Origin: Shinella sp. WSJ-2
Lineage (GTDB): Bacteria > Pseudomonadota > Alphaproteobacteria > Rhizobiales > Rhizobiaceae
Direction: 5' to 3'
NCBI RefSeq assembly: GCF_003432075.1
Contig: NZ_QWBU01000016.1
Span: 1-64,000 of the forward strand
DNA length: 64,000 nt
Shown here one piece after another: positions 29,929 through 50,262 of this stretch. The stretch's first letter is position 1. Each line of letters opens with the position of its first letter. The notes under the pieces are model-generated. The model saw only the letters and a list, made by a program, of their open reading frames with translations, did no database searches and was not told the DNA's origin. Made by a program: the position numbers and the translations under genes.

Positions 29929-30732
29929 TCATGTGAAGTTTGGGAAACGATCGCTGTCAGGCGCATTTGCCCAGCTTTGCAGCGTTTGGCCGCCGTCGAT
30001 CAGCCAGTCGACACCCGTCACATGTTTGGCATCGTCGGACGCAAGAAAGGCGACAGCAGCGGCAACATCCTCGGGCTGGCCGATGCGGCGCAAGGGAATG
30101 CGGTGGGCAAAGCGCTCGATGCCCGCGGAGTAGGCCGCTTCGTCCTCTGCCGGAACACCCAGACGAGTTTCGATGACGCCGGGGCAGATGGCATTGACGC
30201 GGATACCGTAAGGCGCCGCATCAAGCGCTGCGATACGCGTGATGCCGACGACACCGTGTTTGGTTGCGGCGTAGCCGACCCCACCGGACAGAACGTCCCA
30301 GCCCGCCATCGACGACCCCATATTGACGATGGCACCCTGTCTTTTGCCGGCAATCATGGCGGCGAGGGTCGCGCGGAGAACATAGAAGATACCGTTGAGA
30401 TTGATGCCAACAATCTTCTGCCAGTCTTCAATCGACAGCTCGTGCACGGGCGCGACCGTGCCGGAGATGCCGGCATTGTTGAACAGGACATCGATGCCGC
30501 CGAAATGAGCGGTGACGGCGCCGACCATGGCTTCGACCGCAGCCGGATCGGCCACATCGACAGCGAACGCCTTGGCACGATCGCCGAATTCAGCCGCAAC
30601 CTCCTCCGCCTTGGCACCGTTGAGATCGGCTATGGCGACGCGGGCACCTTCCGAAAGAAAACGACGCACCGCGGCAGAGCCGATAACGCCGGCAGCACCG
30701 GTCACGAGCACGGTCTTGTTTTCAAAACGCAT
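29929..30732 (-). CDS. SDR-family NAD(P)-dependent oxidoreductase
   Basis: This 267-residue classical short-chain dehydrogenase has TGAAGVIGSAAVRRFL (cofactor), NNAGISG, the catalytic Ser in NMGSSMAG and YAATK. The start at 30732 has AAGGA 6 bases upstream. The ATG two codons earlier is too close to it. It is the last gene of the sugar operon and its start lies inside the end of the epimerase gene. It probably oxidises a sugar or sugar acid. Confidence 0.86.
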   Translation of the reverse strand: MRFENKTVLVTGAAGVIGSAAVRRFLSEGARVAIADLNGAKAEEVAAEFGDRAKAFAVDVADPAAVEAMVGAVTAHFGGIDVLFNNAGISGTVAPVHELSIEDWQKIVGINLNGIFYVLRATLAAMIAGKRQGAIVNMGSSMAGWDVLSGGVGYAATKHGVVGITRIAALDAAPYGIRVNAICPGVIETRLGVPAEDEAAYSAGIERFAHRIPLRRIGQPEDVAAAVAFLASDDAKHVTGVDWLIDGGQTLQSWANAPDSDRFPNFT

Positions 30733-31606
30733 CGTCATTCCTTCTCAAATCGTGGCCGGGCGCCGGCGGGTAGTCGCGCCAGGAACATCGTGGAACAAAT
30801 CCGAGAGCATCGCGCGCGACGCCGGTATCGATGAGCGACGCAAACCCGACAAGAGGCTGGCGATGGGCGACGCCCGGATAGGCCGCCTCGGCTAGCCCGG
30901 CCGATGGCTGGTCCATATAACTGTCCGCAGCGCTCAGGAACGCGCGAAGATGTCCCTCCACCGGCCGCTCAACGGCGGACAGGAAAGCAGAAGCGGCATC
31001 GCGCGCATCGAGATACGCCCAGAGATCACGGGCGGCTTCAGCCTGCGCGCGCCGCGGGCCGATCTGGGCGTGAAAGCTCTCCGGTGTCTGGATCCAGGGC
31101 ATGCGCAGACTGACAGCCGAGAATACCCCGCGCCGGACCGAGGCATCGACCATTTCTTCACCGAGCCATTTCGTAATGGCGTAAATATCCTGCGCTCCCA
31201 CGGGATGCCCCTCGTCGATCGGCAGGTAAGGCGGCACGACAGGCTTTTCAAAAAAGGGATAACCAAGCACGCTGAAGGACGAGGCATAGACAAACCGCCG
31301 TATACCAGCGATACGCGCAGCCTCGGTCGCCGCGTACATGGCCCCCATATTGACCCGAAACACGTCGGCAGCAGCACGCCCCGTGGGTCTCGGGATCGCG
31401 GCGATGTGCACCAGCACATCCTTGTCGGCCGCCAGTTCGGCAAGCACGCCGAGATCGCCAGCGTCCGCCGTGATATGCGCCCAGCCGCAGTCCGGCGGCG
31501 GGGCCATCATATCGAGACCGGTTACGACGTGTCCCGCATCCCGCAATGCCGTAGCGACGTGCCGGCCCAGGAGGCCGCTCGATCCGGTGACGAGGATGCG
31601 GCTCAT
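30722..31606 (-). CDS. NAD-dependent epimerase/dehydratase family protein
   Basis: This 294-residue extended SDR protein has ILVTGSSGLLGRHVATAL at the N-terminus, FVYASSFSVLG (catalytic Ser region) and YAITK (Tyr-Lys). Relatives include uronate dehydrogenases and sugar epimerases that act on free sugars or nucleotide sugars. It overlaps both neighbours: 4 bases with the Gfo/Idh gene and about 11 with the SDR gene. In this operon I favour sugar or sugar-acid oxidation over nucleotide-sugar synthesis. Confidence 0.83.
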   Translation of the reverse strand: MSRILVTGSSGLLGRHVATALRDAGHVVTGLDMMAPPPDCGWAHITADAGDLGVLAELAADKDVLVHIAAIPRPTGRAAADVFRVNMGAMYAATEAARIAGIRRFVYASSFSVLGYPFFEKPVVPPYLPIDEGHPVGAQDIYAITKWLGEEMVDASVRRGVFSAVSLRMPWIQTPESFHAQIGPRRAQAEAARDLWAYLDARDAASAFLSAVERPVEGHLRAFLSAADSYMDQPSAGLAEAAYPGVAHRQPLVGFASLIDTGVARDALGFVPRCSWRDYPPAPGHDLRRNDDAF

Positions 31607-32703
31607 GCCTGCCCTCCCTTCGGCCTTACGGGCAGTGCCCTGATGATGCGCTCGGCCAACTCGAGATCATCGAGCCCCCCCTGAAGCGGTGTGATAGGTG
31701 CGGCCTTTCCTTTAACGCAGGCGATGAAATGCCGCCATTGCCGGCGGAACGCGGTTTCCGGCGTGCCGGGCAGAATGCGCTCGCTCGGCCCCTCGCCGGC
31801 AGCCTCGCGCAGACGCACCGTCGCCGCGGCATTCCGCACATAAGGGTTCTGGAAATCGATGCGCACTTCGTCCTTCTCGCCGTGAACGGTCATCCATTCG
31901 TCCCACCATTCATACTGCGCGCCGAACGCCACTTCCAGCAGCGCCGGAACACCATCGGGGAAACCGAGCACGGCCATGATATGTGTCGGTCCCACCGCCT
32001 GCGCATAATCGACGCGCTCCGCGACGCCGAAAGCACCGCGCAGAACCGCAAGATCATGACTGCCGAGCATCAGAAGCGTCATGTAGAGGTCAGCGTAACC
32101 GGCATGGTCCTGTCCGAGTCCGGCTGCGACGCGCGCAGCCACATCCGCCTGGGTCGCCTTGATAAGCTCGATATCGCCGTCCTTGCCGCGCACCTGCGTA
32201 TAAAGCTGCTGATAGCGATCGAAACGGCCCGCGAAATCATGCACCTGGATCATTTTCGGCCGGCCGATCTGGCCGATCTTTTCGAGGCCGAGCCGATAGC
32301 CGGGATCATAAAGCTTCATGTAGCCGACAAGACCGACCAGCCCGCTTTCATTCGCCGCCTTCACAAGCGGACGCGCCTCCTCGGCTGTGAAGGCCAGCGG
32401 CTTTTCGACGATGAAATGTTTGCCGGCCTTGATGGCGGCCTCGACAACCGGGCCATGATCGAAGGTGCAGATGACCACAGCATCGACGGCCGGGTCGTCA
32501 AGCAGCGCCTGGTATTCCCGGTAGCAGGCGGCGACGCCATATTGCGCGCTCAGCGTCTCGAGAACCGTCCGGGAAAGATCGCAAAGCGCTGCCAGACGCA
32601 GCTCCGGAAGTTCGTGAATAACAGGAAGGTGCATCAGCTGCGCGATTTCGCCGCAACCGATCACGCCGACGCCGATCGGCGTTATGGGGTTGGAAGCCGT
32701 CAT
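31603..32703 (-). CDS. Gfo/Idh/MocA-family oxidoreductase
   Basis: This 366-residue protein has the N-terminal Rossmann motif GVGVIGCGEIAQLMHLPVI and the family EKPLAFT motif with catalytic Lys (about residues 100-106), followed by the C-terminal alpha/beta domain. Members oxidise inositols, sugars or glycosides with NAD(P). AAGGAG precedes the ATG. It follows the sugar permeases in the operon, next to the sugar isomerase-type, epimerase and SDR genes. Confidence 0.87.
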   Translation of the reverse strand: MTASNPITPIGVGVIGCGEIAQLMHLPVIHELPELRLAALCDLSRTVLETLSAQYGVAACYREYQALLDDPAVDAVVICTFDHGPVVEAAIKAGKHFIVEKPLAFTAEEARPLVKAANESGLVGLVGYMKLYDPGYRLGLEKIGQIGRPKMIQVHDFAGRFDRYQQLYTQVRGKDGDIELIKATQADVAARVAAGLGQDHAGYADLYMTLLMLGSHDLAVLRGAFGVAERVDYAQAVGPTHIMAVLGFPDGVPALLEVAFGAQYEWWDEWMTVHGEKDEVRIDFQNPYVRNAAATVRLREAAGEGPSERILPGTPETAFRRQWRHFIACVKGKAAPITPLQGGLDDLELAERIIRALPVRPKGGQA

Positions 32704-32724
32704 TGTGAACTCCTTATATTCCGG

Positions 32725-33630
32725 TCACGACTTGACCGCGCCGGCGGTCAATCCGGCGATGAATTGTTTCTGCATGAGCACGAAGACGATGATGACCGGC
32801 AGCGTCGTCATCGCCAGTGCCGCGAAATAGAGGTTCCACATCGATCCATACTGCTGGAAGAACGCGACGAGGCCGAGCGGTATCGTTTGCAGGGCAGGAT
32901 CGCGCAGCAGGAGGAAGGCGAGGAAGAAATCGTTCCAGATTTCGATGAAGCCGAAGATCGTCACCAAAGCGAGGCCGGGCCGGATCAGTGGCAGCATGAC
33001 CTTGCCGAGAATCTGGAGCCGACTGGCGCCGTCGATCCGCGCGGCATCCTCCAGCTCTGCGGGCAAGGACAGAAAGAAACTGCGCAGAATGAAAATGGAG
33101 AGCGGCAGGTTGGAAGCCGCGTGGATGATGGCAATGCCGATCCGGCTGTTGACCAAACCGAGATCACGCGCCGTCATGAAGAGCGGGATCGCCATGACCT
33201 GCGGCGGTATCAGCATCGCCGCTACGACCAGCGCGAGGATGACGTTGCGGCCACGAAACCTGAGGCGAGACAAGGCATAGGCGGCCGGGGTCGCAACCAG
33301 CAGCAGAAGCGCAAGTGCCGTTGCCGTCACGACGACGCTGTTGAGGATGCGCGCACCGATGCCCGCAACCCGCCACGCCTCGGTATAATTTTGCCAGGCA
33401 AAGCCTGACGGCAATCCCCACACATTGGCGATGACCTCTTCTTTCGTCTTCAAGGAGCCGGAAAGCACCCAGAGGAGCGGATAGAGTGTTTCGACAAGCA
33501 CGATTGCCAACAGGCCGTAAACGAGAACCAGCTCACTAACGGTACGGCCGGCGAGCAAGCCCTTCCAGAATAGGTGGCTAGAGAATGGCGGCTGGGCACG
33601 GGCGGGGCGAATAGAGCTGTGGTGTTCCAT
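32725..33630 (-). CDS. Carbohydrate ABC transporter permease (MalG type)
   Basis: This 301-residue membrane protein starts MEHHSSIRPARAQPPFSS, 2 bases after the end of the first permease gene. It has six hydrophobic segments and the EAA loop AELEDAARIDGASRLQILGK. The longer upstream reading frame overlaps the previous gene and is rejected. Its partner is the 33633-34538 product. The operon has no ATPase gene, so it must borrow one. Confidence 0.87.
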   Translation of the reverse strand: MEHHSSIRPARAQPPFSSHLFWKGLLAGRTVSELVLVYGLLAIVLVETLYPLLWVLSGSLKTKEEVIANVWGLPSGFAWQNYTEAWRVAGIGARILNSVVVTATALALLLLVATPAAYALSRLRFRGRNVILALVVAAMLIPPQVMAIPLFMTARDLGLVNSRIGIAIIHAASNLPLSIFILRSFFLSLPAELEDAARIDGASRLQILGKVMLPLIRPGLALVTIFGFIEIWNDFFLAFLLLRDPALQTIPLGLVAFFQQYGSMWNLYFAALAMTTLPVIIVFVLMQKQFIAGLTAGAVKS

Positions 33631-33632: not shown

Positions 33633-34538
33633 CTACATCTCCACCTTGCTGCGCCGCATGAGGCCCAAAAGCAGGACGCAGGACAGTGCGACAATGAGGA
33701 ACAGCGCGTATCCCATGGCGCTGGCATAACCCATATTGCCGTCCTGGAAGGCAGTCTTGACCATATAGGTCATCACCACTTCGGTGGCGTGGTTCGGCCC
33801 GCCCTGCGTCAGCACCTGTACGATATCGAAGTTGCGGACAAAGGCACCGGACAGGCCCAGAATGATGTTGATCAGCACGACCGGCATCATGAGTGGGAGG
33901 GTGATATGCCTGAAACGCTTCACCGCGCCGGCACCATCGATACGGGCGGCCTCGTAAAGCTCGTCCGGTATGGTCTGCAGGCCGGCGAGATAGATGACGG
34001 CGTGAAACCCCAGCCATTTCCAGACATCGACCACGATAATCGAATAGAGCGCGATATCGGCATCCCCCAGCCATGACAACTTCAGTGCTGAAAGGCCGAG
34101 CCCGTCTAGTGCCGCGTTGAGGAGGCCGAACACCGGATTGTAAATCCATGACCACAGAAGGCCGGTGGCCGCGAAGGAAAGCGTGACCGGAATGAAAACT
34201 GCGGCCCGGATCGGCCCACGCAGGAAAATTGCCCGGTCCAGCAGGATGGCCAGACCAAGGCCCAGCACGTTCTTTAGAAGCAGGATGAGGACAACGAAAA
34301 TCAGATTGTTCTCGAGCGCACCGAGAAACAGCCTATCACCCAAAAGCTTAGCGTAGTTGGCGACGCCGATGAAAACCGGCGCCGAAAACCCGTCCCACCG
34401 CGTCAGGCTGATCCAGAGCCCGCGCAGGAACGGCCACAGAAAGAACAGCGAAAACAGGACGGCGGCAGGCGCGAGCATGAAAGCCGCGACCGTCGCGTCG
34501 TCATCCCGCCGGATGATCCTCGTTATACGCGTGAGCAT
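33633..34538 (-). CDS. Carbohydrate ABC transporter permease (MalF type)
   Basis: This 301-residue membrane protein has six segments and the EAA loop ELYEAARIDGAGAVKRFRHI. It lies 11 bases after the sugar-isomerase-type gene and directly before the MalG-type permease. It forms a heterodimeric channel for the sugar bound by the 35587-36951 product. Confidence 0.88.
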   Translation of the reverse strand: MLTRITRIIRRDDDATVAAFMLAPAAVLFSLFFLWPFLRGLWISLTRWDGFSAPVFIGVANYAKLLGDRLFLGALENNLIFVVLILLLKNVLGLGLAILLDRAIFLRGPIRAAVFIPVTLSFAATGLLWSWIYNPVFGLLNAALDGLGLSALKLSWLGDADIALYSIIVVDVWKWLGFHAVIYLAGLQTIPDELYEAARIDGAGAVKRFRHITLPLMMPVVLINIILGLSGAFVRNFDIVQVLTQGGPNHATEVVMTYMVKTAFQDGNMGYASAMGYALFLIVALSCVLLLGLMRRSKVEM

Positions 34539-34549: not shown

Positions 34550-35473
34550 TCAGCGCTTGCTAGGGTTCAGCACAAGTCCAAGCGTTTCAGTGAGATAAGC
34601 AACACTTTCTCTTGCGCTCTGCTCTGCGGTCTTCTGCGAGGCATCGAGCTCCACGATCGCAAGACCGTCATACTCGGCGTCCAGGAGAACGTCGACAAGC
34701 CCGGGCATATCGACCACGCCTGCACCGAGTTCGCTGAACGCAGCATAGCGCTCAGGGCCGACGAGGCTGTCGTCCACCCGCGTATCCTTGAGGTGGATGT
34801 ATCGCACGGCGGACATGTAGGTGCGGAGCGCGTCCACCGGATCCGAATGGGTCTGCGCCAGATGGGCGGGATCGATGCAGAGCCCCGCATGCCGCGTATC
34901 CAGCTCATCCATCATCCGGTCGAGCTGTTCGCGCCGCTCGATGAAGGTGTCGAGATGCGGGTGGTATACTGTGGCAATGCCAAGATCGGCCGTACGCCGG
35001 CCGATATCCTCAAGCGCACGGCAGAAGGCCTTGTAGTCTTCCGGGAGATGTTTGTTGCCCGACGCTTCCGACGGCCCCCCGCCGAGCACCAGAACCGGAG
35101 CATCGAAACCCTTCAGGATGCGCGCAAGAGAAATAAGGCAGGCACGCTCCTGCTCCCACAGCACGGGATTGACGAAGGTCGCGTTCACATAGAGCGAGGA
35201 CAGGCGGATACCCAGATCGCTCTGTGCTTCGGAAAGTAGCGCGTAGCGCCGCAGGATGTCGGTATCCGTCGTTACGCCCGGAGGCGGCAGATCGCCAAGC
35301 TGCATGTATTTGCGGGCAAACTGGTCGGAGAGGCTGGTGAAGGCGAGAATTTCAAACCAGCCAAAACCTTCCTGTGCAAGAAAATCGAGCGCCGGGCGCA
35401 AGGGCTGTCCGGTCAGGTCCCAGCTGTTTAGATGATAGCCGATGGAAAAACGTTGGCGTGCAGAACGGGTCAT
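34550..35473 (-). CDS. Sugar phosphate isomerase/epimerase-family TIM barrel protein
   Basis: This 307-residue protein of the xylose-isomerase-like TIM-barrel family shows putative metal ligands in ATVYHPHLDTF, LCIDPAHLAQT, RYIHLKD and LAIVELD. Relatives include IolE, IolI and sugar epimerases. It is the second gene of the operon, after the binding-protein gene and its hairpin. Together with the Gfo/Idh oxidoreductase it resembles inositol or 3-keto-sugar pathways, but the substrate is not determined. Confidence 0.83.
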   Translation of the reverse strand: MTRSARQRFSIGYHLNSWDLTGQPLRPALDFLAQEGFGWFEILAFTSLSDQFARKYMQLGDLPPPGVTTDTDILRRYALLSEAQSDLGIRLSSLYVNATFVNPVLWEQERACLISLARILKGFDAPVLVLGGGPSEASGNKHLPEDYKAFCRALEDIGRRTADLGIATVYHPHLDTFIERREQLDRMMDELDTRHAGLCIDPAHLAQTHSDPVDALRTYMSAVRYIHLKDTRVDDSLVGPERYAAFSELGAGVVDMPGLVDVLLDAEYDGLAIVELDASQKTAEQSARESVAYLTETLGLVLNPSKR

Positions 35474-35586: not shown

Positions 35587-36951
35587 TTAGTCCTTCGGCG
35601 GCCAGTTACCTTCGTCGACAAGCGACTTGAACGTCGCCTGCACGCTCTGCGCGGCCTCTTCCGGTGTCGCGGTGCCCCCCACGACCCCGGCAATGCCGGA
35701 TGCCACTGCCGTCGTCACTTCGCTCGGCCAAATCCAGTCGAGGAACTTGATCGTGTTGGGGAACGCGGTGGCGCGCAGATCCTTGGCATATTGTTCGTCG
35801 ACACCCTCGACACCCTTGATGGACGTCGCGATCGGCTGCTCCGCATCGAGATAGATCTTTGCCACCTCCGGCTTCGTCAGATAGGCGACGAAGTCGAGTG
35901 CCGGTTTGACCTTTTCCTCCGGAATGGAAGCAGAGAGGCACATGCCGTTATCGGCACCGCCGCCGTGCTTGGCTTCACCCGGCGTTCCCTCCATCTTGGG
36001 GAACGGGAAAACACCCCAGGAGAAGCCCTTTACGTTTTCCTTCAGGGACGGAACCTCCCAGGTGCCGCCGTAGTACATGGCGCTCTTGCCACTGGCGAAG
36101 GCGGCGCGCATGCCCTCCATATCGACGGAGAGAGAATCCTTGGAAAGGATGCCGTCGTCGACCCACTGCTTGATCAGTCGGAACGCTTCGACGCTGGCAG
36201 CATTGTCGAACTTCTCTTTGCTTTCAAGCTGCGCCTGCGTGACGCCAACAGGGTCACCGCTTGCTTGCGAGAAGGTCTCGAAATACCACATCGGCCACAT
36301 GACGCTGTTCGATCCCTGATGCAGCAGCGGGATGACGCCCGCTTCCTGCAGCTTCGGCACCGCGGACTTGAGGTCCGCATAGGTCGGCGGCGTGGGAATA
36401 CCGAATTTCTTGAAAAGGTCGACATTGTAGAAGATCGTCGAGGTCGACAGCGACGTGATCGGCACGCCATAAACCTTGCCGTTCACATTGAACGCGCCGA
36501 GGCTGGCCGGATCGACATTTGCGACGAAGGGCTGGATCTCGTCCGTAATCGGCCGCAAGAGCCCGCGGCGCACATACGCGCCGTTGACCCAATAGGCAGA
36601 GCAGGCGATCAGATCCATCTCTTGGCCGGAAAGCTTGGCGGTCATCAGGCGTTGGAGCGAACCTGACTGGGGACCCTGCGCATCCCATTCGACGGCAGAG
36701 ACTTCGGGGTGTTCCTTCAGAAAACCGGCAACGATTTCCTCGCGGATCTTCGTTTGCACCTCCGGCGTCTCCCGTGGGGCAAGAACGTCGAGGGAGGAAC
36801 CGCCGAACACTTTCAACGTAACACCATCGGCGTTTGCCGAAGCCGGCATGAAGGCTGCCGAGAGGCTGAGGGCGACCACAAGCAGGCGCAAGGCCGACCG
36901 GCGGCGGGCGTTTTGGGGAATACGGGCATGAACTGGCTGAGAAAACGGCAT
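35587..36951 (-). CDS. Carbohydrate ABC transporter substrate-binding protein (family 1)
   Basis: This 454-residue periplasmic binding protein has a long signal region (Arg-rich start, hydrophobic LRLLVVALSLSAAFMPA, cleavage near ASANADG). SBP_bac_1 features include AYWVNGAYVRRGLLRPI and GKSAMYYGGTWEVPSLKEN. AAGGGG precedes the ATG. It is the first gene of a seven-gene sugar operon and divergent from the isochorismatase gene. The promoter contains a large dyad shared in part with the nucleoside operon. Confidence 0.87.
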   Translation of the reverse strand: MPFSQPVHARIPQNARRRSALRLLVVALSLSAAFMPASANADGVTLKVFGGSSLDVLAPRETPEVQTKIREEIVAGFLKEHPEVSAVEWDAQGPQSGSLQRLMTAKLSGQEMDLIACSAYWVNGAYVRRGLLRPITDEIQPFVANVDPASLGAFNVNGKVYGVPITSLSTSTIFYNVDLFKKFGIPTPPTYADLKSAVPKLQEAGVIPLLHQGSNSVMWPMWYFETFSQASGDPVGVTQAQLESKEKFDNAASVEAFRLIKQWVDDGILSKDSLSVDMEGMRAAFASGKSAMYYGGTWEVPSLKENVKGFSWGVFPFPKMEGTPGEAKHGGGADNGMCLSASIPEEKVKPALDFVAYLTKPEVAKIYLDAEQPIATSIKGVEGVDEQYAKDLRATAFPNTIKFLDWIWPSEVTTAVASGIAGVVGGTATPEEAAQSVQATFKSLVDEGNWPPKD

Positions 36952-36994: not shown

Positions 36995-37047
36995 GACCAT
37001 ATCGTTGATGGTCATACAAGTAAGGATCAGCTTTTCCGTCTTGTCAA
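36995..37047 (-). promoter_or_regulatory. Promoter and operator of the sugar ABC operon
   Basis: On the minus strand a -35 box TTGACA (37047-37042) is followed after 17 bases by a weak -10 CTTACT (37024-37019). Over the start region lies the dyad GACCAT, seven bases, ATGGTC (36995-37013), inside TTGTATGACCATCAACGATA. The nucleoside operon promoter carries a 20-base stretch matching this at 17 positions. The core ATGACCATCAA (37015-37005) also resembles the palindrome in front of the marR unit. Confidence 0.55.
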
Positions 37048-37145: not shown

Positions 37146-37185
37146 TTGACTTTGAACCACCGGACTTGATTGTTTGATTATCAAA
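37146..37185 (+). promoter_or_regulatory. Promoter of the isochorismatase-marR unit with a palindromic MarR-type operator
   Basis: TTGACT (37146-37151) and ATTGTT 17 bases later form a plausible promoter. TTTGATTATCAAA (37173-37185) is a perfect 13-base palindrome at the -10/start region, the position expected for a MarR-type repressor. The marR gene is second in the unit, so autorepression is likely. Confidence 0.6.
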
Positions 37186-37224
37186 TAAAAGCCGCATCAG
37201 CGAGCAACAAAGGGAACCTGATCG

Positions 37225-37866
37225 ATGTCACTTGATGTCTTTTCCGCGCACCGCAACGAGCAAGAGGTACGCCTCGACGCGAAAAGAACAGCGATCATCG
37301 TGGTCGACATGATCAACGAGTTCTGCAAACCGGGCGGTAAAATGGTTCTGCCGGGATATGAAGCGCTCGTCGGACCGCAGCGCGCCATCATCGATGCGGC
37401 CCGCTTAAACGATGCGCCCGTGATCTGGATCCACGACGCTCACCGCCCTGGTATGCGACACGAGCACGAATGGGCCAAACGCACACCGCACTGCCTTGAA
37501 AACACATGGGCAGTTGAGATCATCGAGGATCTCGGCGCCCGCCCTGATGAGATTCATGTGACGAAGCGCCGTTACTCGGCCTTCTTCCAGACGGATCTCG
37601 ATCTCGTTTTGAAAGACATGAAGATCGATCAGCTCGTCGTGTTCGGCGTCGTGACAAACATCTGCGTCCGCTCCACGGTGCATGACGCCTTTTTCAACGG
37701 CTACGAAGTTGTCGTTCCTGCCGATGCCTGCGCGGCGACCGGAAAACGGGAGCAGGATAGTTCACTCTATGACATCGGCACCCATTTCGGTGTCGTCTCG
37801 GATTCTAAGGCTGTTGTTGCAGCCCTGAGCGGAGGCGCTACCATCGCCAATCAGATTGCGGCGTGA
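37225..37866 (+). CDS. Isochorismatase-family cysteine hydrolase
   Basis: This 213-residue protein has the family triad: Asp28 in IIVVDMINEF, Lys114 in HVTKRRYSAF and Cys147 in VTNICVRSTVHDAF, plus the cis-peptide region before the Cys. Enzymes with this exact set hydrolyse amides such as nicotinamide, ureidoacrylate (RutB), N-carbamoylsarcosine and biuret, rather than isochorismate. It is followed by the MarR regulator (stop 16 bases before the chosen start) and the enamidase-like gene. I infer that it removes an amide or carbamoyl group in a heterocycle breakdown route. The substrate is unknown. Confidence 0.85.
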   Translation: MSLDVFSAHRNEQEVRLDAKRTAIIVVDMINEFCKPGGKMVLPGYEALVGPQRAIIDAARLNDAPVIWIHDAHRPGMRHEHEWAKRTPHCLENTWAVEIIEDLGARPDEIHVTKRRYSAFFQTDLDLVLKDMKIDQLVVFGVVTNICVRSTVHDAFFNGYEVVVPADACAATGKREQDSSLYDIGTHFGVVSDSKAVVAALSGGATIANQIAA

Positions 37867-37882
37867 ACCGGTGGGGCAGGAC

Positions 37883-38425
37883 TTGAGCAATATCGAAACG
37901 ATGGAAGACGAAACGCACGTTGAAACGGGCGTCGAGCAGGGATCGGAGCCGCCGGAACTCGGGCGCGACGAAATTCTGGCCTATGTCGCCCGCACCGGCT
38001 ACTCGCTGGAACATCACCCGGCACACATCATCCGCCGGGCACACCAGCGAGCAACGGCCTGCTTTCAGGAAATCATACCGGTCAGCGATGTGACACCCAC
38101 GCAACTTGCCGCGCTGGTGACGTTGCTAAAGGCAGGTGAGCTTTCGCAAAACCATCTCGGACGCATCAGCCAGATGGACCCATCGACGATAAGCCTTGTG
38201 GTGAAAGCGCTCCTGAAGCGCGGCCTTATCGCGCGAAAGCGCTCGGAAACCGACCAGCGCATGACGATGATCACCCTGACCAACCGCGGCGTGCATTACA
38301 CCCTGCCACTGCTGGATCACAGCATGCAGGTCGCGCGCACGCTTTTGGAACCGTTGACCCCGGCCGAACAGGCAACACTTCTTGAACTTCTCAACCGCAT
38401 CAGCGGACCGGAACCGACCGAATAA
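37883..38425 (+). CDS. MarR-family transcriptional regulator
   Basis: This winged-helix protein of about 180 residues has the core TQLAALVTLLKAGELSQNHL, ISQMDPSTISLVVKALLKRG and the wing RKRSETDQRMTMITLTNRG. I place the start at a TTG (37883) with GGGG 6 bases before it. The ATG at 37901 is the alternative and has no good ribosome site. It is the natural candidate to bind the perfect palindrome at 37173-37185 and the related sites in the sugar and nucleoside promoters. Its ligand is unknown. Confidence 0.82.
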   Translation: MSNIETMEDETHVETGVEQGSEPPELGRDEILAYVARTGYSLEHHPAHIIRRAHQRATACFQEIIPVSDVTPTQLAALVTLLKAGELSQNHLGRISQMDPSTISLVVKALLKRGLIARKRSETDQRMTMITLTNRGVHYTLPLLDHSMQVARTLLEPLTPAEQATLLELLNRISGPEPTE

Positions 38426-41103: not shown

Positions 41104-41198
41104 TTGACAACAAAAAATAGGATGCGCAATCTTTTGTACGACCATCAATGAAATCGGCACTGAAGACCGATGCGATGGAATCGCCTGTTGACCATCAG
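41104..41198 (+). promoter_or_regulatory. Promoter and two operator-like sites of the nucleoside operon
   Basis: TTGACA (41104-41109) and a weak CAATCT 17 bases later form the promoter. TTGTACGACCATCAATGAAA (41134-41153) matches the sugar operon start region at 17 of 20 positions, at nearly the same distance from TTGACA. A second copy of the core, TTGACCATCAG, lies at 41188-41198, just before the ribosome site. Both resemble the palindrome TTGATTATCAA of the marR promoter. Confidence 0.55.
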
Positions 41199-42215: not shown

Positions 42216-42225
42216 GGCTTGAGCC

Positions 42226-42259
42226 GGCGGACAGGACGGGGGAACCTGCCCTGTCCGCC
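42226..42259 (+). terminator. Intercistronic hairpin after the BMP binding-protein gene
   Basis: GGCGGACAGG pairs perfectly with CCTGTCCGCC (10 bases, 14-base loop). It starts 10 bases after the binding-protein stop. No T run. Confidence 0.6.
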
Positions 42260-42340
42260 ATTGAAAGCCCCGCCCTTTTCCCTTGAAAGGCTGCTTTTCG
42301 GCGCAAGCCCGGCTGCACGCCTGTTATGATCGCTTGAAAC

Positions 42341-43870
42341 ATGACTTTTGCTGTCGAACTTAAAGGCATCACGAAACGCTTCGGCGCTTTTACGGCCAAT
42401 TCCGGCATCGACCTTGCCGTCCGGCAAGGCGAGATTCACGCCATCATCGGTGAAAACGGTGCCGGCAAGACGACGCTGATGAACGTGCTTTTCGGCCTGT
42501 TGCAGCCGGATGAAGGCACGATTTCGATCAATGGCAAGACCATGGCGATCGACAGCCCCGCCGTTGCCATCAATGAGGGCCTCGGCATGGTGCACCAGCA
42601 CTTCAAGCTCGTGCCCTCGCTGACGGTTGCCGACAATATTTTCCTCGGCATGGAAATCCGCCGCAGCGGATTGATCGATCGCGCTGCGCAGGTCGAGCGT
42701 ACACGCGCTCTATCGCAAAAGTTTGGCCTCAAGGTCGATGCCCAGGAGCGCGTTGCCGGTCTTTCCGTCGGCATCGAACAACGCATTGAGATTCTCAAGG
42801 TGCTCGCTCGCAACGCGCGCACCATCATTCTCGACGAACCGACAGCCGTGCTGACGCCGCAGGAAAGCCGTGACCTTTTCGAGACGCTGCGCAGCTTTGT
42901 CGACGACGGCATGACCGTCATTTTCATTTCCCATCACCTTGAAGAGGTCATGGCCGTTTCGGATACGATAACTGTTCTCCGCGACGGACGCGTGGTTGCG
43001 ACCCGCCCCAAGCAGGAACTCACCAAGCGCGAGCTCGTGCGACTGATGGTTGGCCGCGATGTCAGCTTCGACCGCCGCCCGCGCGAGGCAACGCAGGGTG
43101 ACGCCGTACTGGAAGTCAACGACCTGTGGGCGCGCGACGACCGCCGCCTTGCTGCGCTGAAATCCGCCAGCTTCTCCGTTCGTGCCGGCGAGATCGTCGG
43201 CATTGCCGGCGTTGCTGGAAACGGCCAGACCGAGCTTGCCGAAGTGCTCTCGGGCTTGCGAGAGGCAAGCCATGGCAGCGCAAAGCTTTACGGTCAGGAG
43301 ATCACCGGCCACACGCCCGCCGAAATCCGCGCCCGCGGACTGGCACATGTTCCCGGCGATCGCCTTGCCCGCGGCGTCGATCGCAATGCCTCGCTGTCGA
43401 CGAACATCCTGATGGGCCGCCAGAGAAAGGCACCCTTCGCAAAAAACGGCATCATCAACTGGAGCGTCGTTCAGGACGAGATGCGCGCCCTCATCAAGCG
43501 CTTCGACATCCGCGCGCGAGGTCCGAAGGATGTGGCGAAAAGCCTGTCCGGCGGCAATATCCAGAAGGTCGTGCTGGCGCGTGAGTTCACCGCGGGCGGC
43601 GACATGCTCCTGATCGACCAACCGAGCCGCGGCGTGGACATCGGCGCGCAGGAAGCGATCCACGACGAGATCATGCAGCAACGCGCGGAAGGCCGTGCGA
43701 TCCTCCTCATCTCCACCCAGCTCGACGAATTGAAGGCGCTCGCCGACCGCATCATCGTGATGTTCGAGGGGCGCATCATGGGCACCGTCGAGGGAAATAC
43801 CATGGATGAAGACACGATCGGCCTGATGATGGCCGGCGTGGATCCATCAGACGTGAAGGAACACGAATGA
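42341..43870 (+). CDS. Nucleoside ABC transporter ATP-binding protein (two ATPase domains)
   Basis: This 509-residue tandem ATPase is of the sugar/nucleoside type found with BMP proteins. Domain 1 has Walker A GENGAGKTTLMN and a variant signature LSVGIEQRIEILK. Domain 2 has a degenerate Walker A GVAGNGQTELAEV and a normal signature LSGGNIQKVVLAREF. That asymmetry is normal for the family. The start codon has no strong ribosome site. The end overlaps the first permease gene by 4 bases. Confidence 0.88.
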   Translation: MTFAVELKGITKRFGAFTANSGIDLAVRQGEIHAIIGENGAGKTTLMNVLFGLLQPDEGTISINGKTMAIDSPAVAINEGLGMVHQHFKLVPSLTVADNIFLGMEIRRSGLIDRAAQVERTRALSQKFGLKVDAQERVAGLSVGIEQRIEILKVLARNARTIILDEPTAVLTPQESRDLFETLRSFVDDGMTVIFISHHLEEVMAVSDTITVLRDGRVVATRPKQELTKRELVRLMVGRDVSFDRRPREATQGDAVLEVNDLWARDDRRLAALKSASFSVRAGEIVGIAGVAGNGQTELAEVLSGLREASHGSAKLYGQEITGHTPAEIRARGLAHVPGDRLARGVDRNASLSTNILMGRQRKAPFAKNGIINWSVVQDEMRALIKRFDIRARGPKDVAKSLSGGNIQKVVLAREFTAGGDMLLIDQPSRGVDIGAQEAIHDEIMQQRAEGRAILLISTQLDELKALADRIIVMFEGRIMGTVEGNTMDEDTIGLMMAGVDPSDVKEHE

Positions 43871-44922
43871 AAACGGCCCTCTTGCCAGACGGCCTGACCC
43901 GCACTCTCGCCGGGCAGGTCCTTGCCTTCGCCGTCGCGCTATCGCTCGGCGCCGTGATCATCCTGCTGATCGACGAGAACCCCGTGACGGTGTTCATGAC
44001 GCTGATGCGCGGCGCCTTCGGCGATGCCGAGAAAATCGCCGGGACCCTGTTGCAGACGACGCCGATCCTGATCTGCGGCATTGCCGCCTGCATCGGGCTT
44101 CGTGGCGGCATGTTCAATGTCGGCATCGAGGGCCAGCTTTTCTTGGGCGGTTTTGCAGCCGCTTGGGTCGGCTTCGCCTTTGCGCTGCCGCCGGTCCTGC
44201 ATGTCGTCGTCGCCATCGCCTGCGCCATTCTTGCCGGTGCCGCTTGGGTCGCGATCCCCGCCTTTTTCCGCGTTCGCTACGGCACCAATGAAGTGGTCTC
44301 CACGATCCTCGCCAATTACATCGCGATCCTGCTCACCTCCTATTTCACGATCTTCCTCTTCAAGCGCCCGGGTGGATGGTCGGAAACGCCGCCAATCCTG
44401 GCGACTGCCTATCTGCCAGAGCTTTTCAGCTTCTCGCGACTAAACGTCGGGTTGTTGATCGGCCTGTTCCTGGCGATCGCAACCGCTGTTTTCTTCCGCT
44501 GGGCCTCCACCGGTTACGGGGTGACGATGGTCGGCTCCGCACCGAAATTCGCGGAATATGGCGGCATTAACGTTCGTAAGGTCGGCTTCGGCGTGCTCCT
44601 CGCCTCGGGCGCGGTGGGTGGCCTTGCCGGCGGCGTCGAAACGCTCGGTGTGCACCACCGCTTCATGGAAGGCTTCGCTCCCGGTTTCGGCTTCGACGGC
44701 CTGATTGCGGCTCTTCTCGCCAACGGATCACCGATCGGCACGATTTTCACCGCGCTGTTCTTCGGGGCACTCCGAGCCGGATCCTTGCTGCTTGAAGTCG
44801 ATACGACGGCCTCGCGCGAGATCATTACGGTCATCCAGGCCTTGATCATTCTTGCGGTCTCCGCGGACCTTATGATGCGCCGGCGCGGCGATCGCACGGG
44901 AGAGCGTCGATGGAAGTTCTAA
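43867..44922 (+). CDS. Nucleoside ABC transporter permease, first subunit
   Basis: This 351-residue membrane protein is of the NupB/YufP type, with about nine segments. Family signatures are CIGLRGGMFNVGIEGQLFLG and RYGTNEVVSTILANYIAILL. It overlaps the ATPase gene by 4 bases and the second permease gene by 13. It forms the channel with that second permease. Confidence 0.87.
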   Translation: MKTALLPDGLTRTLAGQVLAFAVALSLGAVIILLIDENPVTVFMTLMRGAFGDAEKIAGTLLQTTPILICGIAACIGLRGGMFNVGIEGQLFLGGFAAAWVGFAFALPPVLHVVVAIACAILAGAAWVAIPAFFRVRYGTNEVVSTILANYIAILLTSYFTIFLFKRPGGWSETPPILATAYLPELFSFSRLNVGLLIGLFLAIATAVFFRWASTGYGVTMVGSAPKFAEYGGINVRKVGFGVLLASGAVGGLAGGVETLGVHHRFMEGFAPGFGFDGLIAALLANGSPIGTIFTALFFGALRAGSLLLEVDTTASREIITVIQALIILAVSADLMMRRRGDRTGERRWKF

Positions 44923-45905
44923 GCACCATTTTCAATGTCGCGCTGATCGTCGCGACGATCCGTACCACGGCACCGATCCTTCTCGTCGCCCTGGGTGGCT
45001 CCTTCACCACCAAGGCCGGCATCTTCAACATCGGACTTGAAGGACAGATGCTGATCGCCGCCTTCTTCGCGGTGCTCGGCTCGATCTGGACCGGCTCCTC
45101 CCTCGGCGGACTGGTGATCGGCGTGGCGGCAGCGCTCGTCTTCGCCCTGGTCTTCGCAGTGCTGGTCATCAGCTTCCGCGCGAATGAGGTGGTGGTTGGC
45201 CTGGCGCTCAATATTCTTGCGGGCGGCATGACCATCTCCCTGATGAAGGCGATCTTCGGCACGCGCGGATCGATCGTCGGCCGCGGCATCGTGGGTCTGC
45301 CGAAGGTGCAGATTCCTGGCGCTCGCGATATCCTCGGGCCATACGCCCAGCTGATCTCCGGCTACACACCGCTGATCTATGTGGCGTTCATCGCCGTGCC
45401 CCTCCTCATCCTCATCTATGGACGCACGCGTCTCGGCCTCTATATACGCGTGGTCGGCGAGAAGCCGGAAGCTGCCGAAGCACTCGGCATTTCGATCGCC
45501 AAGGTCCGCTACACCGCCGCCCTGCTGTGCGGCCTGCTCGCCGGACTTGCGGGTGCGCATATGTCGCTCGGCTACATCACGATGTTCACCGAGAACATGT
45601 CTTCCGGACGCGGCTTCATGGCTGTCGCGATTCTGATCTTCTCGGGTGGCGATCCCTGGCGCGTGCTGGCGGGCTGCCTGCTGTTCGGTTTTGCCGACGC
45701 GCTGTCGCTGCGCCTGCAGACCTTCGGCTTCCCGTCCTATCTTGTGCTGGCGGTTCCTTATACCGTTGCTCTCACGGCGTTGTTTGCACTCTCCTGGAAG
45801 GCACGGCCGAAGCTCATCCGCGAAACGATAGAGACGATGCAGCGCGCGCTCTCCGTTCATCCGGCGAAATCCGAAACGCCGGACACCCGATCCAACCGTT
45901 CCTGA
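44910..45905 (+). CDS. Nucleoside ABC transporter permease, second subunit
   Basis: This 331-residue membrane protein is of the NupC/YufQ type, with TTKAGIFNIGLEGQMLIAAF and FRANEVVVGLALNILAGGMT as family markers. GGGAG precedes the ATG, which lies inside the end of the first permease gene. It completes the nucleoside transporter. Confidence 0.87.
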   Translation: MEVLSTIFNVALIVATIRTTAPILLVALGGSFTTKAGIFNIGLEGQMLIAAFFAVLGSIWTGSSLGGLVIGVAAALVFALVFAVLVISFRANEVVVGLALNILAGGMTISLMKAIFGTRGSIVGRGIVGLPKVQIPGARDILGPYAQLISGYTPLIYVAFIAVPLLILIYGRTRLGLYIRVVGEKPEAAEALGISIAKVRYTAALLCGLLAGLAGAHMSLGYITMFTENMSSGRGFMAVAILIFSGGDPWRVLAGCLLFGFADALSLRLQTFGFPSYLVLAVPYTVALTALFALSWKARPKLIRETIETMQRALSVHPAKSETPDTRSNRS

Positions 45906-45929: not shown

Positions 45930-46949
45930 ATGCAACGCATCATCCTCGACGTCGATTCCGCTGGCGACGATATTCTCGCCGTTCTCTTCGCTGCCGCCCA
46001 CCCCGATATCAAGCTCGAGGGTGTCACGACGGTAACCGGCGCCGCCGGTCCGATCACGCAGGTCACCAATGTCGTGCTCAACACGCTCTCGCTCGCGGGC
46101 CGCGACGACATTCCCGTCCATGCCGGCGCCTGGCGTCCGATGGTCGGCAATTCCAAGACAGATATGGAAGCTCCGGTCCATTTCGAAAAGCGGTTGACCG
46201 CCCGCTTCGGCGACCGGCTGAAAACGTTCAATCCTCCTGCCCCAATACCGAAACGTGCGGCAACGCAGGGCCATGCCGTCGATTTCATCATCGAGACGGC
46301 CAAGGCGCATCCGGGCGAATTGACCCTCGTCACGACAGGCCCGACGACCAATGCCGCCATGGCCATTCTGCAAGAGCCGGCACTGCCTTCGCTCCTCAAG
46401 AACATGCTGGTCCTGGGCGGCAATTTTTCGACGCCCGGCAACATGACGCCCCTGTCGGAATACAATATCTGGGCGGACCCGGAAGCCGCACGCATCGTGC
46501 TCAATGCCGATTGCCCGAAAATCCTCGTGCCCCTCGATATCTGCGAAGACAATCGCGTCGCCGACAGCATGCTGACGCGTGACGATCTCGCCGACATGGC
46601 CAGCGTCTCGAAGGACAACGCCGTCGTCGACATGATCCGCGAGGTCTTCCCGATCTATATCGATATCTGGCGCGAATTCTTCGGTCTTGTCGGCTTCCCG
46701 ATGGACGACGTCATCACCGTCGCGCTCGCCATCGACCCCGATCTCGTCACCACCACCGCTCCGCTGTTTGCCGATGTCGTGATCGAAAAGGGCATCGCGC
46801 GCGGCCAAACTGTCGCCTATCGCGGACACCAGATCCTGCCCGGCGGCGATGGCCCGAAGACCACCCGGATCGGCACGGGCCTTGACGGTCGCCGCTTCCT
46901 CGAAATGTTCAAGACGACAATGGCGCGCTACGGCCGCGCTGCAGCCTGA
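45930..46949 (+). CDS. Nucleoside hydrolase-family protein with atypical active site
   Basis: This 339-residue protein has the nucleoside hydrolase fold. The calcium-binding N-terminus is DVDSAGDD (Asp7, 9, 13, 14), where the usual form is D-x-D-P-G-x-D-D. Near the C-terminus, the position that normally holds the catalytic His-Asp pair reads PMDDVITVALAIDP, so the His is absent while the Asp is kept. The GNFSTPGN segment is intact. It may act on an unusual nucleoside, or partner with the canonical enzyme encoded next. AAGG precedes the ATG. Confidence 0.82.
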   Translation: MQRIILDVDSAGDDILAVLFAAAHPDIKLEGVTTVTGAAGPITQVTNVVLNTLSLAGRDDIPVHAGAWRPMVGNSKTDMEAPVHFEKRLTARFGDRLKTFNPPAPIPKRAATQGHAVDFIIETAKAHPGELTLVTTGPTTNAAMAILQEPALPSLLKNMLVLGGNFSTPGNMTPLSEYNIWADPEAARIVLNADCPKILVPLDICEDNRVADSMLTRDDLADMASVSKDNAVVDMIREVFPIYIDIWREFFGLVGFPMDDVITVALAIDPDLVTTTAPLFADVVIEKGIARGQTVAYRGHQILPGGDGPKTTRIGTGLDGRRFLEMFKTTMARYGRAAA

Positions 46950-46961: not shown

Positions 46962-47885
46962 ATGGCCACTCCTATCCTCTATGACTGCGACCCCGGTCAC
47001 GACGACGCCATTGCGCTTGTCATGGCGCATCGCTCGCCGGAAATCGAACTTCTCGGCGTTACGACGACCTGCGGCAATGCCGAACTCGAACGCACGACGG
47101 CCAATGCCATCCGTGTTCTCGACTTCCTGGGCGCAACCGATGTGCCTGTTGCCGCCGGCTGCGCCCGCCCGCTTGCCCGTCCTCTGGTTCTCGGCACGGC
47201 CGATGGCCCGAGCGGTATGGACGGTTCTCCCTACCTACCCGAGCCCAAGCGCGGCCCCATCGCCCAGCATGCCGTCGATTTCCTGGCAGAGAAGCTTGCC
47301 GCCGCAGCCGAACCCATGACCGTCGTTGCTACGGGGCCGCTCACCAATATCGGTCTGCTCGTATTGAAGCATCCCGACGTCTTGTCCAAGATCAAGGAAC
47401 TGATCTGGATGGGCGGCGTCTTCTATCGCAAGAGCGAGATCATCACGCCGACGGAATTCAACGCCTTCTGCGATCCGGAATCACTGAAGATCGTGCTCGA
47501 CAGCGGCGTGCCGATTACGATGGTCGGTCTGGATGTCACCATGCAGGTGCTGATCGAGGCCGAACAGTATGAGGAGCTTGGCAAGATCGACACGCAGCTC
47601 GGCAAGCTGGTGATGGACTGGCTGCGTTTCTATGAGAAACTGCACCGCAACTCGATGGGCGTCGGCGGCGCCATGCACGACCCGCTCGCGCTCGCCCTCG
47701 TAATCGATCCGACGCTGGTGCGCACCAAACCCGTTCACATCGGCGTCGACCTCAATGGCACCTACACATTCGGCGCAACCGTTGCCGATTTCTGGAAGGA
47801 GCGCGGTGAGCCGGACAATGCACGCATTGCCTACGAGGTGGATGCCGACCGATTCTTCAAGCTGATGTTCGATCTTCTGAGGTAA
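46962..47885 (+). CDS. Nucleoside hydrolase (canonical)
   Basis: This 307-residue protein is of the IunH/RihA type. It has the standard DCDPGHDD calcium loop (residues 8-15), GVTTTCGN, ATGPLTNIGLL and the C-terminal AMHDPLALALVIDP with the catalytic His-Asp. It splits nucleosides into base and ribose in the cytoplasm. AAGGA lies 9 bases before the ATG, 12 bases after the first hydrolase gene. The base specificity is not evident from sequence. Confidence 0.9.
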   Translation: MATPILYDCDPGHDDAIALVMAHRSPEIELLGVTTTCGNAELERTTANAIRVLDFLGATDVPVAAGCARPLARPLVLGTADGPSGMDGSPYLPEPKRGPIAQHAVDFLAEKLAAAAEPMTVVATGPLTNIGLLVLKHPDVLSKIKELIWMGGVFYRKSEIITPTEFNAFCDPESLKIVLDSGVPITMVGLDVTMQVLIEAEQYEELGKIDTQLGKLVMDWLRFYEKLHRNSMGVGGAMHDPLALALVIDPTLVRTKPVHIGVDLNGTYTFGATVADFWKERGEPDNARIAYEVDADRFFKLMFDLLR

Positions 47886-47918
47886 CGCGGCTACGGACGT
47901 CAACATGGAGACAAAAGC

Positions 47919-49025
<1,107 letters not shown>

Positions 49026-49071
49026 ACCACGCGGTGGTGGCGCGAGAGTTGAGCAATCGAGAGCGTTTGGC

Positions 49072-50262
49072 ATGATCTTCGACTATTGCGTTATCGGGGG
49101 TGGTATTGTCGGCCTCGCAACTGCCATGCGACTTCTCGAAACCAGGCCGGGCAGCAGTCTCGTTGTCCTGGAAAAGGAAAATCGGCTCGCGAAGCATCAG
49201 ACCGGGCACAACAGCGGCGTCATCCATGCCGGCATCTACTACCCGCCGGGAAGCCTGAAGGCAGAACTTTGCCGCAAAGGCTCTGTGGCAACCAAAACAT
49301 TCTGTGCTGAAAATGGCATCCGTTTCGATGTTTGCGGCAAGCTCCTTGTCGCGACATCCGCTGCCGAAGTTTTAAGGATGGAGGCACTCTACGAACGCTC
49401 GAGACAAAACGGCATCGAGGTTGCAAGGGTTGGTGCCGAGGAATTGAAAGAGCGGGAACCGAATGTCCGTGGTCAGGGCGCACTTCTTGTTCCCTCTACC
49501 GGTATCGTCGACTATTCCGAAATATGCCGCGCCATGGGCTGCCGTATCGAGGCCCTAGGCGGCGAGATCCACTTGTCGACCCGGGTATCCGGCATCCGCG
49601 AGACGGCGGCCGCCGTGGATATAGACTGCGAAGGCAAAAGCTGGCGGGCGAAAAAACTGATCGTGTGCGGCGGGCTGCAATCGGACCGGTTGGCGATGTC
49701 GGCCGGCCTCTCGATCGACCATCGCATCATCCCATTTCGCGGCGAATACTACCGCCTCTCGCCCGAGAAGAGCGCCATCGTCCGCCACCTCATATACCCC
49801 ATCCCCGACCCGGCCTTGCCGTTTCTGGGCATACATCTCACGCGCATGATCGATGGCGGCGTGACGGTGGGGCCGAATGCGGTCATCGGTTTTGCGCGCG
49901 AAGGGTATCCACGTCTTTCCGTTGATCTTTCCGACACGGTCGATATCGTGCGCTTTCCCGGGTTCTGGAAAACCGCTTTTTCCCATCGAAAGTCGGCCCT
50001 TCAGGAATTCCGAAACTCCTTCTGGAAGGCCGGGTATCTGAAGGAATGCCAGAAGTACTGCCCAAGCCTCGACCTGGGCGACCTTCTTCCATATGAGGCC
50101 GGTATCCGCGCGCAAGCGGTGCACAAGGACGGCACCCTGATCCACGACTTCCTCTTCGCCGAAACGGACAGGATGCTGCATGTCTGCAATGCCCCGTCCC
50201 CCGCGGCCACCTCGGCCTTGCCGATCGCAGAAATGATCATCTCGCGCATGGCGGCCCGCTAG
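49072..50262 (+). CDS. lhgO: L-2-hydroxyglutarate oxidase
   Basis: This 396-residue FAD protein starts MIFDYCVIGGGIVGLATAMR and carries QTGHNSGVIHAGIYYPPGSL, the LhgO signature, and LLPYEAGIRAQAVHKDGTL. It oxidises L-2-hydroxyglutarate to 2-oxoglutarate at the membrane. The start is chosen because the longer upstream frame lies over the ATPase gene. It is the last gene of the nucleoside operon. The link could be a dicarboxylate product of heterocycle breakdown. Relatives that act on other 2-hydroxy acids are possible. Confidence 0.85.
   Translation: MIFDYCVIGGGIVGLATAMRLLETRPGSSLVVLEKENRLAKHQTGHNSGVIHAGIYYPPGSLKAELCRKGSVATKTFCAENGIRFDVCGKLLVATSAAEVLRMEALYERSRQNGIEVARVGAEELKEREPNVRGQGALLVPSTGIVDYSEICRAMGCRIEALGGEIHLSTRVSGIRETAAAVDIDCEGKSWRAKKLIVCGGLQSDRLAMSAGLSIDHRIIPFRGEYYRLSPEKSAIVRHLIYPIPDPALPFLGIHLTRMIDGGVTVGPNAVIGFAREGYPRLSVDLSDTVDIVRFPGFWKTAFSHRKSALQEFRNSFWKAGYLKECQKYCPSLDLGDLLPYEAGIRAQAVHKDGTLIHDFLFAETDRMLHVCNAPSPAATSALPIAEMIISRMAAR

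Follow-up and report, generated by a model that had tools for sequence, protein, structure and literature searches.

We analysed a stretch of 64,000 nucleotides from Shinella sp. WSJ-2 (contig NZ_QWBU01000016.1, positions 1 to 64,000; hereafter the window) and propose that its positions 29929–50262 hold a catabolic cluster, controlled by a MarR-family regulator, for a nicotinamide-type nucleoside with a partly reduced ring. Such a nucleoside probably feeds a lower module that opens 1,4,5,6-tetrahydro-6-oxonicotinate (THON). For the complete explanation, in which a riboside derived from NAD(P)HX is the first-choice substrate, we see about even chances on the sequence comparisons given below. 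An earlier note on this DNA had placed side by side a nucleoside transporter, two nucleoside hydrolases (NH1 and NH2), an isochorismatase-type amidase, an enamidase-like amidohydrolase, two proteins of family PF06684 (AA1 and AA2), LhgO, and a sugar transporter with oxidising enzymes. Profile searches and open reading frames located all of these genes there, with matching domain families, together with two that the note had not named, for the MarR regulator and for a MalK/UgpC-type ATPase. No such pathway is described in the literature covered (open-access titles and starts of abstracts).

Conservation of the cluster and its operator-like motif

The nucleoside transporter consists of a BMP/PnrA-type binding protein (PF02608), a two-domain ATPase and two PF02653 permeases (41214–45905), and is followed by NH1 and NH2, which scored 248 and 308 bits against PF01156. 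DxDxxxDD is the nucleoside hydrolase motif; its forms DVDSAGDD in NH1 and DCDPGHDD in NH2 were each invariant in 26 of 26 aligned rows. Known BMP/PnrA-type transporters with nucleoside hydrolases have the same parts. Unlike those systems, the present cluster is linked to a heterocycle-opening module, and its scores stay under the curated cut-offs of the named members.

Of 397 genomes sampled from the order, 17 contained NH1 (E ≤ 1e-60); in the class-wide sample it was limited to the own genome, 1 of 385. Co-conservation, on which the earlier note had made its composite system depend, was observed in 21 of 26 compared contexts. The full set from SDR1 to NH2, with the sugar module, was present in 14 of them, while the other 7 had the set minus the sugar block and retained the two short-chain dehydrogenases (SDR1 and SDRe). 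The remaining contexts were three with transporter and nucleoside hydrolases alone, one at a contig end (L073) and one with the amidohydrolase alone (L080; G and L numbers are our labels for genomes and loci). The window is close to Shinella: from SDR1 through NH2, its proteins share 91–100% identity with those of Shinella curvata (L069). In seven genomes (G099, G130, G225, G293, G307, G334 and G347) the order is rearranged into a one-strand row, BMP-ATPase-permeases-NH1-NH2-isochorismatase-MarR-enamidase, and the PF06684 pair adjoins this row or sits up to ∼13 kb off.

The larger counts given below compare 28 nucleoside contexts (the window left out) with 25 contexts carrying AA1 without NH1, each within its fetched stretch; L073, L080, L177, L179 and L180 belong to neither group. 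Identity thresholds were 50% for most proteins, 40% (nucleoside) or 34% (other contexts) for MarR, 40% for UPF0280, 45% for LhgO and 80% for UgpC. The contexts are non-independent, as L069 and L070 are both Shinella, L075, L077 and L078 are near-identical, and L181, L209 and L210 come from one species.

Comparison of the divergent promoters yielded an operator-like motif with the pattern TTGATNRTCRWAYRA. It matched the window four times, at three sites, against 0.01 expected, and these sites are located between SBP1 and the isochorismatase gene and between AA1 and the BMP gene, in the two divergent promoters of the cluster. The four matches were the sole ones in the whole genome of 5.14 Mb, where the reversed control pattern had none. 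Among relatives, 25 nucleoside contexts (785 kb) had 46 sites, every one of them within a cluster promoter. In 570 kb from 28 other contexts there were two, and these both belong to the incomplete cluster L073; the control pattern was absent from both sets. The cluster's own MarR presumably binds this motif.

Since the units are co-conserved and the operator-like motif is confined to cluster promoters, the cluster, judged from these comparisons, is one system whose grouping is not due to chance. That three or more unrelated operons are merely adjacent, as the divergent and convergent transcription units and the lack of the sugar module in 13 of the 28 contexts might suggest, is highly improbable: adjacency was kept despite rearrangement, and the motif is limited to the promoters of the cluster.

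In genome G099 (contig C4, 895100–954800; L173, L159 and L160), a third nucleoside hydrolase, 33% identical to NH2, lies between the Gfo and SDRe genes, and farther off there is a second BMP/permease/NH2-like set of 29–49% identity.

A lower module shared with nicotinate operons

The amidohydrolase matched the enamidase of Eubacterium barkeri (PDB 2vun) with E=4e-109 and 368 bits over residues 10–387. Residues H74, H76, E171, H200, H227 and D283, which we take to be metal ligands, did not vary across the 34 aligned rows and correspond to the same residues of 2vun. According to PMC9304392, enamidase opens THON to 2-formylglutarate.

AA2 and AA1 scored 239 and 243 bits against PF06684 (cut-off 27); an AlphaFold model of AA1 reached a mean pLDDT of only 56, which is poor. 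A likeness of AA1 and AA2 to barbiturase/cyanuric acid hydrolase or to RidA is a speculative idea. By sequence they belong to the same family as the structures BB2672 (3byq) and SPO0826 (2qtp), which PMC2954203 describes as hexamers with a Bacillus chorismate mutase-like fold. A role in amino-acid metabolism is proposed there; the gene contexts that we observed speak for nicotinate/THON catabolism instead. Of 199 genomes of the order, 67 contain PF06684 and 46 contain 6-hydroxynicotinate reductase (Hnr); 42 of these 46 also carry PF06684 (exceptions G032, G064, G120 and G159). As read from the tables of this order sample, all 23 genomes with tandem PF06684 genes have an enamidase of at least 54% identity, and an enamidase of this kind also occurs, with no tandem pair, in 10 more of the 71 genomes searched. 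Hnr was found in 20 of the 23, and the three without it (G000, G099 and G130) all carry NH1. On the plasmids L174, L175 and L178, the PF06684 pair and an enamidase of 54–57% identity stand beside Hnr, UPF0280, a molybdenum hydroxylase and a ferredoxin reductase. Going by this co-occurrence, we assign the PF06684 proteins to the lower part of reductive nicotinate breakdown, in whose operons they stand beside Hnr and UPF0280. A family still named for amino-acid synthesis would thereby be placed in nicotinate/THON catabolism, and the co-occurrence pattern makes its function testable.

We also considered AA2 as a mark of the enamidase branch only. All 23 tandem genomes of the order sample agree with this, but L212 and L213 contradict it, as their AA1-AA2 occur with HyuAB and no enamidase is found in the fetched stretch; AA1 and AA2 accompany both ring openers. 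A single PF06684 gene beside an enamidase-like gene of 43–46% identity was seen in L177 (11399–15206) and L180 (9391–13860), the partners of these pairs being an FAD monooxygenase and a glutamine-type ATP-binding cassette (ABC) transporter, which suggests that the pair is in wider use.

The reductive nicotinate pathway of Eubacterium barkeri and Azorhizobium caulinodans runs via THON, and the cluster shares with it the enamidase homologue and, as in proteobacterial Hnr operons, the PF06684 proteins. Unlike that pathway, none of the 28 nucleoside contexts had Hnr, UPF0280, the operon-type (nicotinate-type) molybdenum hydroxylase or the ferredoxin reductase. The cluster in the window, from which such a hydroxylase is likewise absent, carries in their place the importer for nucleosides, NH1 and NH2, an amidase and the two SDRs. 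Conversely, SDR1, SDRe, the BMP protein and NH2 were found in none of the 25 AA1 contexts without NH1. The isochorismatase occurred in one of these 25, L042, where 8168–15741 holds an enamidase, AA2, AA1, a urea/branched-chain-type ABC transporter and an isochorismatase of 57% identity, with no Hnr within the stretch; this variant possibly serves the free amide base.

The ring opener was exchanged in both kinds of context. Among the 25 nucleoside contexts bearing AA1, it was the enamidase in 21 and HyuA with HyuB in 4 (L181, L209, L210 and L213); among the 25 other AA1 contexts, the enamidase in 11 and HyuAB in 3 (L049, L176 and L212). The HyuAB-type nucleoside clusters of S. medicae WSM419 and WSM1115 (L209 and L210) are unbroken. 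In S. medicae ml29 (L181) the SDR1, BMP ATPase and HyuB homologues (335–1142, 3384–4761 and 10825–12575) each lie in two reading frames. On the AA1 tree the nucleoside label needs four changes, at least two of them forced by starred branches, and the AA1 of the S. medicae nucleoside clusters sits among the HyuAB-type nicotinate AA1 (100/99). On the enamidase tree it needs two changes, at least one of them forced. The lack of overlap among the upper genes, together with the swap of ring opener in both groups, suggests one lower module exchanged between two exclusive upper modules, both of which would deliver THON.

The earlier note had offered a nicotinate- or a pyrimidine-like ring. We favour the former, given the repeated presence of the enamidase and PF06684 proteins in Hnr-bearing operons, and a pyrimidine is disfavoured. 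The amidase is an isochorismatase-fold hydrolase like RutB of the Rut pyrimidine pathway. Among PDB chains the uncharacterised 3hb7 came closest to it, followed by RutB. All 25 aligned rows kept D28, K114 and C147 as well as the stretch D71-x-H73...H89, whose D-x-H part has no counterpart in the aligned RutB. Nicotinamidases have a D-x-H...H metal site, to which D71-x-H73 and H89 may correspond. This kinship to RutB, and the 43–46% enamidase-like proteins found where a lone PF06684 gene neighbours other transporters, would suit a nucleoside with another cyclic amide base (pyrimidine-like or a different heterocycle), to which the enamidase and PF06684 proteins had been redirected. We regard such a substrate as rather improbable, as no gene of the RutA/C/D/E/F type was present among the scanned cluster genes, the trees group the nucleoside-cluster enamidases (f16) and AA1 with those of nicotinate operons, and enamidase and HyuAB are exchanged in contexts of both kinds.

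Proposed reactions and the nature of the substrate

The proposed route starts with import of the nucleoside by the BMP transporter. SDR1 and/or SDRe would then use NAD+ to turn the 6-hydroxyl of the ring into a 6-oxo lactam, NH1 and NH2 would cleave off the ribose, and the isochorismatase-fold hydrolase would remove the carboxamide to give THON. Finally, the enamidase (HyuAB in some relatives) would open THON to 2-formylglutarate and ammonia, with the two PF06684 proteins as parts of the same lower module as the ring opener. Each reaction, the reaction order and the substrate are predictions from sequence.

The state of the ring is suggested by the distribution of Hnr, which had no match in the own genome at E 1e-5 and 1e-10; the same query matched 46 of 199 genomes of the order. 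Hnr was likewise absent from 13 of the 17 NH1-bearing genomes, the own one included, and the other four have it on a different contig. The 13 include G244, G371 and G394, which have transporter-and-hydrolase clusters only. A simple nicotinate pathway was rejected as a full match on account of these absences. A route to THON that does without Hnr requires a ring that is already reduced on arrival, and hydrated dihydronicotinamide riboside (NRHX) is the simplest candidate because one two-electron dehydrogenation brings it to the level of THON. The ring of NAD(P)HX is 6-hydroxy-1,4,5,6-tetrahydronicotinamide, and its conversion to THON would need just glycoside cleavage, amide hydrolysis and an NAD-linked alcohol oxidation. 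We put forward this riboside, originating from NAD(P)HX, only tentatively, at clearly less than even chances.

The two dehydrogenases could provide the oxidation. In SDR1 the TGxxxGxG start and YxxxK (Y156) were invariant in 22 of 22 rows, and in SDRe YxxxK (Y142) in 21 of 21; they are present in 25 and 24 (at 50% identity) of the 28 nucleoside contexts, respectively. The earlier note had filed them with the sugar part; both stay with the nucleoside genes where the sugar block is missing. The weak PDB kin of SDRe include 4id9 (1.1e-18) and the uronate dehydrogenase 3rft (8.7e-7). Uronate dehydrogenase converts a cyclic hemiacetal to a lactone, a reaction that may be analogous to the proposed oxidation of the ring 6-hydroxyl.

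NADHX exists in S-, R- and cyclic forms, as given in PMC11715087. It is conceivable, if doubtful, that the cluster serves a dedicated salvage and degradation of damaged NADH, in which R-, S- and perhaps cyclic NRHX are imported, oxidised by one or two SDRs to the lactam and ring-opened by the module shared with the nicotinate pathway. Similarly doubtful is the further idea that the paired SDRs, the paired nucleoside hydrolases and, in the full form, the sugar-oxidising module handle different epimers or anomers.

Two other pyridine nucleosides have to be weighed. With ordinary nicotinamide or nicotinate riboside, NH1 and NH2 would free nicotinamide, the isochorismatase-fold hydrolase would deamidate it, and an unrecognised hydroxylase and reductase encoded elsewhere would convert the nicotinate to THON. 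The lower module is indeed that of nicotinate operons, four of the 17 NH1 genomes carry Hnr on another contig, and the own genome has 10 matches to hydroxylases of the xanthine-dehydrogenase family, the best at 33% identity versus 57–69% for the nicotinate-operon copies. We consider this route unlikely, given that Hnr is missing from the other 13 NH1 genomes and that two conserved SDRs would be left without a task. Pyridone ribosides are oxidation products of nicotinamide, and one such as 6-oxo (2PY-type) nicotinamide riboside would already be at the 6-oxo level. Its aromatic pyridone ring would have to be reduced by an SDR, which seems an unlikely reaction for such an enzyme and is the task of Hnr in the known route (PMC3511419); a pyridone riboside thus has little probability as the substrate.

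Several observations weigh against the proposed breakdown of a reduced nicotinamide-type riboside. The isochorismatase-fold hydrolase scored 113 bits against the RutB profile TIGR03614 (cut-off 378) and ∼80 bits or less on the curated nicotinamidase profiles, under their cut-offs; on nicotinamidase NF008623 (cut-off 174, passed by one of 14 control genomes) it reached 56.9 bits over the whole protein and 41 in the best stretch. Neither ring opener was seen in the fetched stretch of 11 of the 25 AA1 contexts without NH1. Several of those 11 have an enamidase elsewhere in the genome (e.g. G050, G068, G070, G095, G106, G121, G126, G135 and G198), while G069 and G136 have none at E ≤ 1e-60, HyuAB not having been sought genome-wide. 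The clusters of G244, G371 and G394 (L153–L156, L169 and L170) consist of the BMP transporter, NH1 and NH2, with no other cluster genes within ∼40 kb. The exact motif is lacking in 6 of the 25 nucleoside contexts: G244, G371 and G394 have no MarR gene nearby and no operator-like site, G099 is one base off, and Aureimonas L076 and S. medicae L181 are without any, the MarR of the latter being divergent (40% identity). The motif was also built from the same promoters in which it was counted, so its weight rests on its genome-wide absence elsewhere and on the zero controls. A distant hydroxylase could perform the ring hydroxylation, or an unknown reductase unrelated to Hnr could act. Lastly, without CsiD, LhgO has no evident glutarate-derived substrate.

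If the proposed route is true, a pyridine nucleoside would be degraded without the molybdenum hydroxylase and the reductase on which known nicotinate breakdown depends. The route might also be the first in which damaged NAD(P)H is consumed rather than repaired. The cluster would further offer a defined MarR operator-like motif and an inducer assay.

The sugar module and neighbouring genes

The earlier note had the system import an unusual nucleoside or glycoside, split it, open the heterocycle and oxidise the sugar. Nucleoside import, N-glycoside cleavage, amide hydrolysis and nicotinate-like ring opening are retained in our proposal; sugar oxidation is only a possible further step. The sugar block (Gfo/Idh/MocA oxidoreductase, two permeases, TIM barrel and binding protein) is all-or-none, present in 15 and absent from 13 of the 28 contexts, so that by this distribution the module is optional; it has the operator-like sites in common with the rest of the cluster. 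The weak PDB kin are aldose-aldose oxidoreductase 5a02 and DgpA 7xr9 for the Gfo/Idh/MocA protein, and IolE 3cny and 2-hydroxy-3-keto-glucal hydratase 8ro4 for the TIM barrel, weak matches to the dehydrogenase/eliminase pair of 3-keto-glycoside cleavage (DgpA/TIM type). On a Rhizobium rhododendri plasmid (L213, 45–21511), a sugar module with its own MarR (53%) adjoins a nucleoside cluster of the HyuAB type, which has a second MarR (41%).

The CUT1 permeases have no ATPase in their own operon, and the MalK/UgpC-type ATPase is a candidate to serve them; it occurs in 2 of the 28 other contexts (80% identity), both from Shinella. LhgO, with 597 bits against NF008726 (cut-off 299) and a likely start at 49072 rather than 48868, directly follows NH2 or the ATPase in 7 of the 28 contexts and in the window, and the copies of L075 and L079 pass the curated cut-off. 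Judged by their distribution, LhgO and this ATPase are lineage-specific neighbours and not core members. A downstream sequence from glutarate through L-2-hydroxyglutarate to LhgO is unsupported, as no CsiD was found (the E. coli control was positive).

From left to right, a minus-strand block from SDR1 to SBP1 is followed by the plus-strand isochorismatase, MarR and enamidase genes, by AA2 and AA1 on the minus strand, and by a plus-strand run from the BMP protein to LhgO (Table 1).

Table 1. Genes and operator-like sites of the cluster (window coordinates)
Feature	Coordinates	Strand	Remarks
SDR1, classical NAD-type short-chain dehydrogenase	29929..30738	-	PF13561; proposed ring 6-OH oxidation or epimer-specific partner of SDRe
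SDRe, extended SDR / epimerase-family dehydrogenase	30722..31606	-	PF01370
Gfo/Idh/MocA oxidoreductase (optional sugar module)	31603..32703	-	PF01408
CUT1 permease, MalG/UgpE-like (optional sugar module)	32725..33606 (start approximate)	-	PF00528
CUT1 permease, UgpA/MalF-like (optional sugar module)	33633..34538	-	PF00528
IolE-like xylose-isomerase-type TIM barrel (optional sugar module)	34550..35473	-	PF01261
CUT1 solute-binding protein SBP1 (optional sugar module)	35587..36951	-	PF13416/PF01547
Operator-like site upstream of SBP1	37005..37019	+	pattern TTGATNRTCRWAYRA; promoter comparison
Operator-like palindrome just upstream of isochorismatase gene	37170..37188	.	overlapping matches 37170–37184 minus, 37174–37188 plus
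Isochorismatase-fold cysteine hydrolase	37225..37866	+	PF00857; proposed carboxamide hydrolysis
MarR-family regulator	37856..38425	+	PF01047; in 25/28 nucleoside contexts
Enamidase homologue	38499..39689	+	PDB 2vun; proposed ring opener of THON
AA2, PF06684 (DUF1185) protein	39762..40358	-	PF06684; in 22/28 nucleoside contexts
AA1, PF06684 (DUF1185) protein	40355..40939	-	PF06684; PDB 3byq E=7.6e-57; in 25/28 nucleoside contexts
Operator-like site, AA1/BMP divergent promoter	41134..41148	-	pattern TTGATNRTCRWAYRA
BMP/PnrA-type binding protein	41214..42215	+	PF02608; PDB matches include Lbp 7x0r, TmpC 2fqw; 28/28 contexts
ABC ATPase, two domains	42341..43870	+	PF00005, two stretches
ABC permease 1	43867..44922	+	PF02653
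ABC permease 2	44910..45905	+	PF02653
NH1, nucleoside hydrolase	45930..46949	+	PF01156
NH2, nucleoside hydrolase, RihA/RihC-like	46962..47885	+	PF01156
MalK/UgpC-type ATPase	47919..49025	+	profile match; Shinella-specific here
LhgO, L-2-hydroxyglutarate oxidase, peripheral	49072..50262	+	NF008726

On the right, the minus strand of the window at 50286–57108 carries an aldolase/SDR fusion, a PF02653 permease, a two-domain ABC ATPase and a PfkB kinase, a sugar locus that we presume to be of the rhamnose type. On the left, at 25886–29843, a peptide-type ABC binding protein and permease stand beside a peptidase of the M24/creatinase fold.

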